Source: Microbacterium sp. W4I20 (GTDB taxonomy: Bacteria; Actinomycetota; Actinomycetes; Actinomycetales; Microbacteriaceae). From it: a stretch of DNA of 64,000 bases. A program made the position numbers and the translations under genes. Below are positions 1 to 5,511 of this stretch, in pieces. The DNA lies in the NCBI RefSeq assembly GCF_030816505.1, contig NZ_JAUSYB010000001.1:2542001-2606000 (forward strand), read 5' to 3'. The notes under the pieces were generated by a model. That model was not told the origin of the DNA and ran no database searches. It saw nothing but the letters and a program-made list of their open reading frames with translations. The first letter of the stretch is position 1. Every line of letters starts with the position of its first letter.

Positions 1-1
1 T

Positions 2-50
2 CTCTGTCATGTCCGACCCCGGCTCTACCTTAGATGTATGTCTGACAGAG
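2..50. promoter_or_regulatory. inverted repeat over the start of the first gene
   Basis: CTCTGTCA at 2-9 and TGACAGAG at 43-50 are perfect inverted copies. The right arm lies just inside the coding start at 38, so a dimeric regulator bound here would cover the promoter and start region. No regulator is identified, and the window edge hides what lies upstream. Confidence 0.3.
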
Positions 51-493
51 GTATATCTAACCTCCTGACAACCATGATGGCTGCTGGGGGCGTCGCACGG
101 CTAGATGCGCGAGACCATCATTTGATTCACGCGGCGCTTCGTCGCTTGCGTGAGACGGCGGATGGAGCAGCTGTTCTGGCCGCGTTCGGAGTATCCGAAA
201 ACTGGCAGGCCGATCCGGAGGTGGGCATGCGAGTGCCGGGTGTGACCACCGCCCTGTGGGATGCCGTCCGTGACGGGCGGCTGCGCGTCGAAGACCAAAT
301 CACCTCAGCCGACTTTGTCCTCGCTATCGGTGAGACTGCATCGGCGCGGCGCCGTCTCAGCCGCCTTCCGGCCGCTCAAGCCACGGCGATCTACCGGACC
401 GCAACAGACTGGGCTTCCTCTTCGACTAAACGGAAGAACTCGGCCAGCGCAGCATCGTCTCCCACGGCGGTGCGCCGGGCGAACCGCGCGTAA
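38..493 (+). CDS. hypothetical protein, convergent with a kinase gene
   Basis: This reading frame encodes about 151 residues of unrecognised function. The first ~115 residues look like a soluble, mainly helical protein, with an Arg/Leu-rich stretch near residues 30-45 and a conserved-looking segment around 60-100. Codon third positions are mixed and less GC-biased than in the core genes, which suggests acquired DNA. The last ~35 codons run antisense over the end of the convergent kinase gene; this tail is Ser/Ala/Arg-rich and is probably not conserved. The start is an ATG inside an 8-bp inverted repeat (2-9 and 43-50) that could be an operator. It may be a small regulator or partner of the neighbouring kinase, but that is inference only. 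Confidence 0.5.
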   Translation: MSDRGISNLLTTMMAAGGVARLDARDHHLIHAALRRLRETADGAAVLAAFGVSENWQADPEVGMRVPGVTTALWDAVRDGRLRVEDQITSADFVLAIGETASARRRLSRLPAAQATAIYRTATDWASSSTKRKNSASAASSPTAVRRANRA

Positions 494-1518
494 CCGCGCC
501 ATGTATTGCCCCCGTCTCGGCTCCACGAGGCTGACAGCTGCTGGTAGCCAGCGTTTCGCCCACCGAGATCTGCGGCAGTCACCTTCAGCAGTCGTTGGCG
601 TGCTGCGCGTTCTCTCGGCGGCCAGACACCACACCATTCACCGTCGCCTACCTTCGCCCAATTGACATAGGTCAGCTTGTGAAGGGCGCGGAGCGCTTCA
701 TCCGCTGTCTGGAACCGCTTCGCAAGGTCTGCGTGCATCAACTTTCGGACGAAACTGGCTACGGCCGGTCCCACCCACGGCCGAAATGACAGATGCGACG
801 CCCCAATTGCTGGCTTACCCTCGCTCGCCCTGCGGTCGAGGGAGGCGTTGGCGAGAGCGTCGTAGTCGAGCGGCCCGTTCAACATCTCAAACAACGTGAG
901 CCCCGTCGAATACAGGTCAGCACGCTCATCCACCTCGCCGCTGGCGTACTCGGGCGGCCGGTACAGGAGTGTGCCGCCGGCCGCAGCAGCAGTCCCTTTG
1001 ACAGGGTCTAACGCGGCAGCGCTGCCGAAGTCCCCAACGAAGCCTTCCGTTCGTGGCCCATTGAGCATGATGTTCCCCGGCTTGATGTCGCCGTGCACGT
1101 ACCTCTTGGTCGCGTGCAGGTACGCCAGCCCTTCGAGGATGCAAGCGGCGATGTCCAGGGCTGCCTTCGCAGCGAACTGGTGTCCATCTTGAAGGGCCGC
1201 GTGAATGCTCTCACCCTCGTAGTAGTCCGTCACGAACGTGAGCGCTTTCGTTGTCGCGGGATAATCCGCGTCCCACTGGGCGTCGCGAACCCGGATCAGT
1301 CGCTGGTGCTGAAGATCTTCCAACAACTTCGGCTCATTGGTGGCGACCGCGTTGGGCATACCAAGCATGCTGACGGTCTTCTGAACGAACAGCTTTCCGA
1401 AAACGGTGTGCCTATACAAGCGGGTGACGCCGGTGTTCCCCTCTTGAATGGTGCGCAAGAAAGAGTATGCCGCGGGCTGAAAGTCTTTGATCCGCGCGCT
1501 GTCCCCCAGGATCGCCAT
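391..1518 (-). CDS. serine/threonine protein kinase with unknown C-terminal domain
   Basis: A 375-residue protein kinase-like enzyme. Visible catalytic elements are a short glycine loop (GNTG, 27-30), Lys47 in FVQK, HGDIKPGN at 142-149 (HGD rather than the usual HRD, with catalytic Asp144, Lys146 and Asn149 kept), DFG at 163-165 and PPEY at 188-191. The kinase fold ends near 280. The final ~95 residues are Trp- and Arg-rich and match nothing I know. There is no transmembrane segment, PASTA or FHA domain, so it is a cytoplasmic kinase unlike PknA/PknB in this window. The start overlaps the stop of the upstream RuvC-like gene as TAATG, so the two are probably translationally coupled. Its 3' end overlaps the convergent gene at 38 by ~100 bp. 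Its substrate is unknown. Confidence 0.85.
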   Translation of the reverse strand: MAILGDSARIKDFQPAAYSFLRTIQEGNTGVTRLYRHTVFGKLFVQKTVSMLGMPNAVATNEPKLLEDLQHQRLIRVRDAQWDADYPATTKALTFVTDYYEGESIHAALQDGHQFAAKAALDIAACILEGLAYLHATKRYVHGDIKPGNIMLNGPRTEGFVGDFGSAAALDPVKGTAAAAGGTLLYRPPEYASGEVDERADLYSTGLTLFEMLNGPLDYDALANASLDRRASEGKPAIGASHLSFRPWVGPAVASFVRKLMHADLAKRFQTADEALRALHKLTYVNWAKVGDGEWCGVWPPRERAARQRLLKVTAADLGGRNAGYQQLSASWSRDGGNTWRGYARFARRTAVGDDAALAEFFRLVEEEAQSVAVR

Positions 1519-1985
1519 TAGCCGCTCGATTTCAGTTCCGCGACAGCGACGAGAGCCGCGAGATCGCGTTTGCCCGTCCAGTGCGGAGCGTGCGCGTCGA
1601 GCACTGTGGCGGCAAGGTCACTGAGCTTGCCGTTCTTCGCAAGATCCATGACTGATCGAACCCGGGCGCGAGGAATCCGAGCCGCAGTGATGCCATGCTT
1701 ATGCGCGGCATACATCATTGCCGCCTCCAAAGAGATCCGTGGCACCAGTTGCGAGTAGCTCGGGGCGTTCCTGCGGCCCGTCTCCGCATCAAGGATCACG
1801 ACGGCATCAACGCTGAAGCGGTCAAACAGACGCGTCGCATCATCAACGGCAAGGGCGATCTGCTCGTCAAGGGGCGTGTTACTGGCGAGGGCAAAGTTAT
1901 GTGGTGCGTCGAGGACGTCACCGACATCAGACACGACAGCCAGCCATAGACAACTCGTGGTCCCGTTGACGCCGAGAATAGCCAT
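1518..1985 (-). CDS. RuvC/RNase H-fold-like protein, first gene of a kinase operon
   Basis: A 155-residue protein whose layout resembles small RuvC-type or RNase H-fold proteins. An N-terminal strand, MAILGVNGTTS, sits where RuvC has an ILGxDxG strand. A hydrophobic strand ends in LDAET (65-69), a helix at 84-98 carries LEAAMMYAA, and a C-terminal helix starts at KRDLAALVA with Asp141. Asp66/Glu68 and Asp141 could be acidic ligands, but the first position is Asn7 instead of Asp, so catalysis may be altered or lost. A strong AAGGGGGA ribosome site precedes the ATG. It is the promoter-proximal gene of a two-gene operon with the kinase. The fold call rests on pattern recognition only and needs a profile search. 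Confidence 0.55.
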   Translation of the reverse strand: MAILGVNGTTSCLWLAVVSDVGDVLDAPHNFALASNTPLDEQIALAVDDATRLFDRFSVDAVVILDAETGRRNAPSYSQLVPRISLEAAMMYAAHKHGITAARIPRARVRSVMDLAKNGKLSDLAATVLDAHAPHWTGKRDLAALVAVAELKSSG

Positions 1986-2100
1986 CGTTCCCCCTTGAAC
2001 CGAGCCCGACCGTCGACCACGGGTTCAAGAGGAGACTACCGACGCGCCTCGGACCGCGCCACGGTGGCTTGCCGCGAGTCGCCCGCCGACCGCAACGCAA

Positions 2101-2130: not shown

Positions 2131-2241
2131 CTCTGGATTACGAAACAGATTGCCCTGATTTGACGAACAGGGCCCACTTTGCGCGACGGCGGACTCGAGT
2201 CCCCCCGGATCATCGAGGGGCCGCACTCGCGTACAGATAAG

Positions 2242-2284
2242 AATGAGAGAAGGCCGAACCCTCCGGGCCCGGCCTTCTGTCATT
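2242..2284. terminator. hairpin of repeat unit 0
   Basis: Arms AATGAGAGAAGGCC and GGCCTTCTGTCATT, 14 bp with one mismatch, around a GC-rich loop. The sequence closely matches the hairpin at 2631-2673. Confidence 0.55.
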
Positions 2285-2435
2285 GATCCTGTGCGCGAGG
2301 GGGGACTCGAGTCTCTCCGGCGCACTTCACCCGCCGCCTCGTTCCCGACATCGGCGAACGCGGGAGCATCGGGCGGCGCGCGGAGCCTCCGCGCCGGTGG
2401 GGTCCTGATTATCGAGGGGCCAACCTCGCGCCTAT

Positions 2436-2478
2436 AACGAAGAAGAGCCAGACCCTCTGGGCCTGGCTCTTCTTCGTT
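2436..2478. terminator. hairpin of repeat unit 1
   Basis: Perfect 16-bp arms, AACGAAGAAGAGCCAG and complement, around an 11-nt loop. The stem sequence differs from the flanking hairpins but its position in the unit is the same, so pairing was kept while sequence changed. Confidence 0.6.
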
Positions 2479-2630
2479 CTGTGCGCGAGGGGGGACTCGA
2501 GTCCCTCCGGCGCACTCCACCCGCCGCCTCGATATCGACCTCGGCGAACGCAGGAGCATCAGGCGGCGCGCGGAGCCTCCGCGCCGGTGGGGCCCCGATC
2601 ATCGAGGGGCCTCACTCGTGCCCAGATAGG

Positions 2631-2673: not shown

Positions 2674-2680
2674 CGTTCTG

Positions 2681-2763
2681 TGCGCGAGGGGGGACTCGAA
2701 CCCCCACATCCTTTCGAATACTGGCACCTGAAGCCAGCGCGTCTACCATTCCGCCACTCGCGC
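2681..2763 (-). tRNA. tRNA-Leu (anticodon CAG)
   Basis: The reverse complement folds as a class II tRNA. The acceptor stem is GCGCGAG/CTCGCGC with discriminator A, the anticodon arm is CTGGC-TTCAGGT-GCCAG giving CAG, there is a long variable arm, and the T arm is GGGGGTTCGAGTCCCCC. CCA is not encoded. Degenerate copies of its 3' end lie downstream, which suggests that it serves as an integration site. Confidence 0.92.
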
Positions 2764-4206: not shown

Positions 4207-5511
4207 ATGGTCTTCGAAGGCTCGAGCGTCGCGATCTCCCACACCGGGAAGGTCCGCTCCAACAACCAGGACTCCGGATACTCCGGAGCGAACCTGTTCG
4301 TCGTCGCCGACGGCATGGGCGGCCACGCGGGCGGCGACGTCGCCTCGAGTATCGCGATCCACCGCCTCGAGCCCCTCGACCAGGCCTACCGGTCCACCGA
4401 AGACGCCCAGGCCTCGCTGCAGGCGGCGGTGACGACGGCGGCCGGAGACCTCATCCGCGCCGCGAAGGATCGCCCCGAACTCGCCGGCCTCGGCACCACG
4501 GTCAGTGCGATCATCATGGTCGACGAGTACGCCGTCATCGGCCACATCGGCGACTCGCGCATCTACCTCTACCGCGACGACGCCGTCACCCAGATCACGG
4601 CCGACCACACCTTCGTGCAGCGTCTCGTCGATTCGGGCCGCATCACCCCCGAAGAGGCGCGGTACCACCCCCGCCGTTCGGTGCTCATGCGCGTGCTCAG
4701 CGACATGGATTCCGATCCCGAGCTCGACATGTTCGTCATGCACACGCAGCCCGGCGACCGCTGGCTGCTCTGCTCCGACGGACTCTCCGGGGTCGTCGAC
4801 GAGACCCAGATCCTCAAGGCCATGCAGCTCGGGCTCGCTCCCGGTCGCACCGCCGACATCCTCCTCAAGCGCGCCCTCGACGGCGGCGCCCCCGACAACG
4901 TCACCATCGTGCTGGTCGACGTCGGCGGTCAGCATCCCGTGCATTCCGGCACGCCGACCGTCGTCGGGTCGGCCTCGAACCCGTCGGGTGTCTACGTGCC
5001 CCCGGTGCGCACCACCCGCGGCAACTGGCTCCACCCGGTGCGCCAGGCGGCCAACGAGCCGAGCCACTTCGAGCCCGCGCCGGAGTACCTCGAGGAGCTC
5101 ATCGAAGAGGATCGCCGCCGCGCCAAGCGCCGCCGCCTCGGCTGGATCGCCGGGGTTCTCGTCGTGATCGCGATGCTGGCCTTCGCGGCCTTCGCGGCAT
5201 ACAGCTGGACGCAGACCCGCTACTTCATCGGCGCCGACGACGACAGCGTCGTGATCTTCCAGGGCGTGCAGCAGAACATCGGTCCGATCGTGCTGTCCTC
5301 CCCCATCGAAGACACCGACATCCTCCTCGCGGACCTCCCGCCGTATCAGCGGGCATCCGTCGAACGCTCGATCTCGGCGCGTTCCCTCGCCGACGCGATG
5401 GCGATCGTCGACCGCCTCCGCACGGGCGCCGAGGCGAACGTCATCGAGCAGACGCCGCTCCCCACCCCGGCGCCGAGCCCCAGCGAGACCCCCGCCGGAG
5501 GTGACGGATGA
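4207..5511 (+). CDS. pstP: PP2C-type Ser/Thr phosphatase PstP
   Basis: A 434-residue membrane phosphatase that reverses PknA/PknB phosphorylation. The PP2C catalytic domain covers ~5-240. Metal ligands appear as Asp22 in NNQDS, DGMGG at 35-39, CSDGLSG at 189-195 and PDNVTIV at 229-235. A single transmembrane helix at ~312-334 leads to a ~100-residue outer domain ending in a Thr/Pro-rich tail. The last codons overlap the rodA start by 4 bp (ATGA), pointing to coupled translation. Confidence 0.95.
   Translation: MVFEGSSVAISHTGKVRSNNQDSGYSGANLFVVADGMGGHAGGDVASSIAIHRLEPLDQAYRSTEDAQASLQAAVTTAAGDLIRAAKDRPELAGLGTTVSAIIMVDEYAVIGHIGDSRIYLYRDDAVTQITADHTFVQRLVDSGRITPEEARYHPRRSVLMRVLSDMDSDPELDMFVMHTQPGDRWLLCSDGLSGVVDETQILKAMQLGLAPGRTADILLKRALDGGAPDNVTIVLVDVGGQHPVHSGTPTVVGSASNPSGVYVPPVRTTRGNWLHPVRQAANEPSHFEPAPEYLEELIEEDRRRAKRRRLGWIAGVLVVIAMLAFAAFAAYSWTQTRYFIGADDDSVVIFQGVQQNIGPIVLSSPIEDTDILLADLPPYQRASVERSISARSLADAMAIVDRLRTGAEANVIEQTPLPTPAPSPSETPAGGDG

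Follow-up and report, generated by a model that had tools for sequence, protein, structure and literature searches.

What might a protein kinase do in the company of a protein of RuvC fold, when the two genes share a base and lie beside a tRNA gene? The locus that raises this question is at the left end of the window (the whole stretch of DNA analysed, 64,000 nucleotides, C1:2542001-2606000 in a genome of 4,310,960 bases). An earlier, sequence-only reading placed three ORFs there, and all of them are present: a small gene of 151 aa on the forward strand (38-493), helical by eye and without a family; a protein kinase of 375 aa on the reverse strand (391-1518); and, first in the pair, a protein of 155 aa on the reverse strand (1518-1985), which has a RuvC fold in its predicted structure and is predicted to be catalytically dead. 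The stop codon of the RuvC-like gene and the start codon of the kinase have one base in common (TAATG), and the 3' end of the kinase gene overlaps the small gene, which is convergent with it, by 103 nt. A module of three genes is nevertheless too short a description: on its other side, the small gene adjoins a fourth one, which is oriented divergently. It encodes 109 aa on the reverse strand, looks like a ribbon-helix-helix protein by eye, was matched by no Pfam family and has only its first ten bases inside the window (1..10, continued to the left at L006:681-1010). Besides the window locus, the same genome contains three weaker DNA matches. The closest homologues with a name come from Microbacterium and Curtobacterium, which places the genome among the Microbacteriaceae, as far as can be judged. 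To judge from sequence comparisons, the module is real, mobile and conserved.

The mobility of the module is suggested by its surroundings. The edge of the variable region is marked by a tRNA-Leu gene (cag; ARAGORN, 2680-2763, reverse strand), and beside this intact gene lie, in tandem, three degenerate copies of its 3' tail with hairpins (2177..2510, given without strand), which start at 2177, 2289 and 2479; the tRNA and its degenerate ends had been recognised from the letters alone, and the tail copies are possible old attachment sites. The nearest relative, G094, likewise has repeated matches in this region. Its left flank (a hydrolase-like gene) and its right flank (the tRNA-Leu and the fha genes) are retained at 82-90% identity, and between them are 4.2 kb of different sequence as against 5.2 kb in the window genome. 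In three further relatives (G100, G071, and G174), the right flank alone was matched within the fetched 9.5-11.5 kb, and the tRNA-Leu is present in all four. The GC content of the island is 0.60-0.64 (window 1-2000 and L005 17001-20000) compared with mostly 0.65-0.75 around it, with one further dip to 0.63 at L005 1501-2250. A variable island beside a tRNA, with other sequence between kept flanks in G094, thus supports the proposal that the locus was acquired horizontally. A search of the left edge (L005) for a further copy of the tRNA tail gave nothing, and a scan of six island ORFs turned up no integrase.

Other genes of the island and of its counterpart may be described here. The island has a TIR-domain protein (L005:18400-19221; PADLOC TIR-TM, 6.7e-34; Pfam TIR_2, 1.1e-6), the C-terminus of which resembles the tudor-like domain of PcrA/UvrD. 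A 379-aa ORF (L005:17046-18185) shows a PD-(D/E)XK-like motif by eye and matched no Pfam or PADLOC family. The alternative cargo of G094 (L081:4966-7922) consists, by eye, of a patatin-like ORF and an HNH-like ORF.

The module is scarce in whole genomes, having been found in 1 of 366 genomes of the genus, 1 of 398 in a family sample and 2 of 394 in a class sample, with its own genome included each time. Other loci of the window's type were found in Actinomadura (L009), on a Curtobacterium plasmid (L010, the one opened of three matching plasmid records) and in G822, G1169 (L110), and G1348. All five have the order RuvC-like gene, kinase and convergent ORF, which makes six of six with the window and goes beyond chance; the convergent ORF overlaps the 3' end of the kinase by 85, 88, 100, 103, 106 or 136 nt. 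The exact one-base coupling recurs in four of the six (window, L009, L010, and L110), the start of the kinase being uncertain in G822 and G1348. The identity of the convergent protein to that of the window is 62% in the three Curtobacterium records, 39% in Actinomadura, 27% in G1169, 15% in G1348 and 14% in G822. The Curtobacterium and Actinomadura proteins are clear homologues and that of G1169 is a probable one, while the ORFs of G1348 and G822 are counted as equivalents because of their position; the small gene is, in short, a real one. The divergent fourth gene is 70% identical in Curtobacterium and 39% in G1169, and is a broken fragment in Actinomadura; in its place, G822 and G1348 have another ORF, with a helix-turn-helix and a coiled coil by eye. 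No relative was found in viral contigs scanned with A2, the small protein, and the Rhizobium partner (see below) as queries, or in phage records searched with the window partner.

Two of these loci have neighbours related to mobility. In G1169, a tyrosine-integrase-like ORF adjoins the module (L110:3140-4378), and there is a helix-turn-helix ORF at 4709-5287 (both by eye). On the Curtobacterium plasmid, the module is next to genes for TniQ and an AAA ATPase (L010:12516-18802), a possible transposition unit.

The identification of the partner as RuvC-like, made by eye, is confirmed insofar as the protein is predicted to fold like RuvC. At the level of sequence, the protein has no convincing family: Pfam gave none at E<=10, PADLOC no match, and the best matches in PHROGs and NCBIfam were at 0.3 and 0.097, respectively. 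The main alignment for the active site comprised 30 partners (19 of the window's family, two of the G822 type, and nine enterobacterial or SPbeta) and 12 RuvC proteins. The column of D7 contains N, Q, H, A or R and that of E66 contains L, V or R, so that D is found at the former and E at the latter in none of the 30; in a smaller alignment, the partners from Methylocystis and Rhizobium likewise lack D7 and E66. A C-terminal D is found in 18 of the 19 members of the window's family and in none of the 11 other partners in one alignment, while in a second, smaller one the window protein has K and L in the positions of the C-terminal acids. The suggestion that the partner acts as a nuclease is not supported because the first two active-site acids of RuvC are gone. 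Since these acids are lost in the partners and the kinase motifs are retained, the partner is probably a dead resolvase while the kinase should work.

The kinase had been described as having a variant HGD loop and an intact DFG, and both can indeed be read in it (HGDIKPGN and GDFG); it matches Pfam Pkinase at E=4e-30. The motifs HxDxKxxN and D(F/L/Y)G are retained in 17 of 17 kinases, and that of the window is probably catalytically active. From residue 282 onwards follows a Trp/Arg-rich domain of about 94 residues (394..675, reverse strand), to which no known domain could be tied. Its identity is 56% in Curtobacterium, 40% in Actinomadura and 21% in G822, and no profile link was found to the C-termini of the Rhizobium or enterobacterial kinases. 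A protein search with this domain listed two proteins including itself; it was not exhaustive, since the kinase of Curtobacterium was missing from the list. A search of the class with its profile gave two strong matches (its own genome and G822, both of them rows of the profile) and nine marginal ones (E 0.001-0.009). The whole kinase matched 132 plasmid records, of which only three, all Curtobacterium, matched over at least 80% of its length.

The sequence-only reading had proposed, as a test, that kinase and RuvC-like genes should co-occur in unrelated genomes. They do so in Actinomadura, on the Curtobacterium plasmid, in 933W-type phages, in IMG/VR loci and in Methylocystis. The pair spans several phyla as well as phages, and its two genes keep a constant order and overlap or almost do so. 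Eight plasmid loci were opened, chosen by hand from tblastn matches (40 of 189 records listed for the G822 kinase, 30 of 375 for the Rhizobium kinase), and in five of these hand-picked loci (Rhizobium, Providencia, E. coli, Klebsiella, and Methylocystis), an intact RuvC-like ORF lies directly upstream of the kinase, the Methylocystis partner being identified only from its alignment and its position (hhalign 31.5 to the window's family). In Methylocystis parvus, the plasmid-borne pair is flanked by hsdS and hsdR in a type I restriction operon (L057:457-7032); this operon also has a gene for a GIY-YIG nuclease. In Cupriavidus (L018), the remains of an interrupted partner match the Rhizobium partner at 2.7e-6. 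In Sinorhizobium (L015), an ORF cut by an IS is RuvC-like by eye only, and a later comparison gave it no support. In Caballeronia (L059), the kinase lies beside type VI secretion genes and has no annotated partner, one weak antisense piece (E 0.005) being disregarded.

The enterobacterial partner, which corresponds to phrog_3875 ("RuvC-like Holliday junction resolvase"), leads to phages. At 38 loci in IMG/VR (22 distinct pairs), an ORF with HxDxKxxN lies directly downstream of it in 36, with an overlap of 4-8 nt, and in the other two the downstream ORF is truncated. Among 50,697 phage records, 14 contain this partner: 12 are of the coliphage 933W/Stx type, matched over the whole protein, and two are SPbeta-like, matched over part of it. 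In phage SPbetaL7, the kinase (Pkinase, 7.2e-41) is a neighbour of the RuvC-like ORF, and both are annotated as hypothetical proteins (L060:2986-4538). The loci annotated as stk in the 933W-type phages have the RuvC-like partner, and in the record of phi24B, this ORF is unannotated, lies between cI and stk and overlaps stk by 4 nt (L112:1484-1942). A megablast search found the pair in 223 of 5,426 E. coli genomes, in 221 of them with at least 80% of the query.

An important question is whether these pairs form one lineage or several. An unrooted tree was built from 19 kinases and seven controls. An intact partner accompanies 16 of the 19, the Cupriavidus kinase has its interrupted one, the Sinorhizobium kinase has a doubtful one and sits on a long branch, and P0021 is of unseen context; the controls, few and hand-picked, are five plasmid kinases without an annotated partner and the window's two core kinases. 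A single branch splits the two groups, with a support of 100/99 and in 100% of 200 bootstrap trees, so a single kinase lineage is likely. Another possibility is that RuvC-like proteins joined kinases repeatedly, in which case the analogy with Stk would say little about the window locus. In favour of such independent pairings are the weak link between window-type and enterobacterial partners (hhalign probabilities of 20 and 50.7 in two comparisons), the lack of any link between groups in the kinase C-terminal domains, and the Rhizobium partner, which is a DUF3010 protein. The kinase domains are, however, all on one side of the branch relative to the seven controls, and the gene order, the overlap and the lost active-site positions are the same, which makes several pairings very unlikely as a general account, even if some partners may have been recruited independently.

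The pairs in 933W-type phages bring in a known function. Exclusion by Stk is usually attributed to a single kinase that an infecting phage triggers; how this kinase is held and triggered is, to our knowledge, not settled. According to two publications, Stk of coliphage 933W, for which the original paper is that of Friedman et al. 2011, blocks HK97 (PMC6356687) and has little or no activity until infection by HK97 activates it (PMC3681748). The role in conflict that had been suggested for the window pair is therefore likely, given that the pair shares its architecture with the locus of a published phage-exclusion kinase. Because of this common architecture, the window module may be read as an abortive-infection switch with a dead RuvC as its sensor. 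The principal reading, to which we give a probability of about 0.5, is that of a mobile defence cassette with a core formed by a dead RuvC protein and an active Stk-type kinase. In such a cassette, the RuvC-like protein would bind foreign DNA that is branched or replicating (or a phage protein associated with such DNA), leave the DNA uncut, and restrain or activate the kinase; infection would then trigger the kinase, which would phosphorylate host or phage proteins so that the infection is aborted, as is reported for 933W Stk upon HK97. The sensing of DNA by the partner is a guess from the fold. In the window's type, the small convergent protein and the divergent one of DNA-binding type probably regulate the cassette, or else act as a co-sensor or substrate.

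Several other functions have to be weighed against this defence cassette. In a toxin-antitoxin-like pair, the kinase would be a toxin that stops growth, the RuvC-like protein, made first, would be its inhibitor, and addiction would keep the cassette on plasmids and islands. Tight coupling with the small partner in first place, the presence of the pair on plasmids and in phage-like regions and the divergent ribbon-helix-helix-like gene (a fold common in antitoxins) are all consistent with this; nevertheless, a partner with a full RuvC fold is unusual for an antitoxin and the module contains extra genes, so that such a pair is unlikely. In the immunity region of phi24B, the pair has cI on one side and the OL sites on the other, a position that points instead to a module of lysogeny or host modulation, in which the kinase adjusts functions of the host or of the element and has no part in defence. 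This seems rather improbable for a pair that is also found in a type I restriction-modification operon and in an island of low GC content that encodes a TIR protein, and whose phage version, Stk, is reported to block HK97 (PMC6356687, PMC3681748).

In a last alternative, the RuvC-like protein would serve a mobile element as an active resolvase, and the kinase would be a bystander. The closeness of the fold to RuvC and the one C-terminal D retained in 18 of 19 members of the window's family (in one alignment) would fit an active enzyme, and yet the loss of D7 and E66 in 30 of 30 partners, together with the kinase that comes next downstream at 36 of the 38 viral loci, renders it extremely improbable.

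A wider proposal, on which we would bet at slightly less than even odds, is that of a widespread and unrecognised class of defence switches, in which a dead RuvC senses branched or recombining phage DNA and gates a eukaryote-like kinase, Stk being half of such a pair and the window's relatives a four-gene version. No paper describing the pair was found in a literature search of titles and the starts of abstracts, most subscription papers lying outside it, and the partner of the Stk-type exclusion kinase seems to have been overlooked; the window's type adds two further genes. The conserved and probably dead resolvase that accompanies an Stk-type kinase, in lambdoid phages as well as in the window's relatives, is a candidate for the sensor; if this is true, kinases join the effectors gated by repurposed DNA-repair folds.

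How does the module compare with known systems? The partner shares a close fold with the RuvC Holliday-junction resolvase (PF02075) but differs from it in lacking the first two catalytic acids and in adjoining a kinase and not RuvA. DUF3010 (PF11215), an RNase H-like family near RuvC, is related to the question through the partner in Rhizobium BG6, which belongs to it (3.5e-26) and whose kinase is on the family side of the tree; the window protein, in contrast, has no match to the model (no families at E<=10). In the accessible part of its text, the paper that places DUF3010 beside RuvC reports the exonuclease-like active-site residues to be conserved and does not use the word kinase (PMC3985635).

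Among defence systems, the MADS kinase MAD6 and the PD-T4-6 kinase have a kinase domain in common with the window kinase, as shown by PADLOC (2.5e-35 and 3.4e-33, respectively, in both cases over this domain alone and with no cut-off given for PD-T4-6). The window kinase nevertheless scores 99.9 bits against an NCBIfam cut-off of 460 for MAD6, and 25.4 bits against one of 990 for PglW of BREX; the PADLOC scan found no other MAD genes among the five other island ORFs. We know of no RuvC-like partner described for MAD6 or PD-T4-6. The closest likeness is to the stk locus of 933W-type phages, where a RuvC-like ORF of about 153 aa likewise lies directly upstream of, and overlaps, a kinase of about 350 aa in a mobile setting; the window kinase also matches phrog_2361 (1.4e-28), although only over residues 60-282, its kinase domain. 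The two differ in that the window module has two more genes, the partners are barely alike in sequence (N at the D7 site in the window partner, R in the 933W-type one) and the kinase C-terminal domains are not detectably related. The view that no known system fits thus holds in that the module is absent from every library searched, and falls short in that its pair has the architecture of the 933W-type stk locus.
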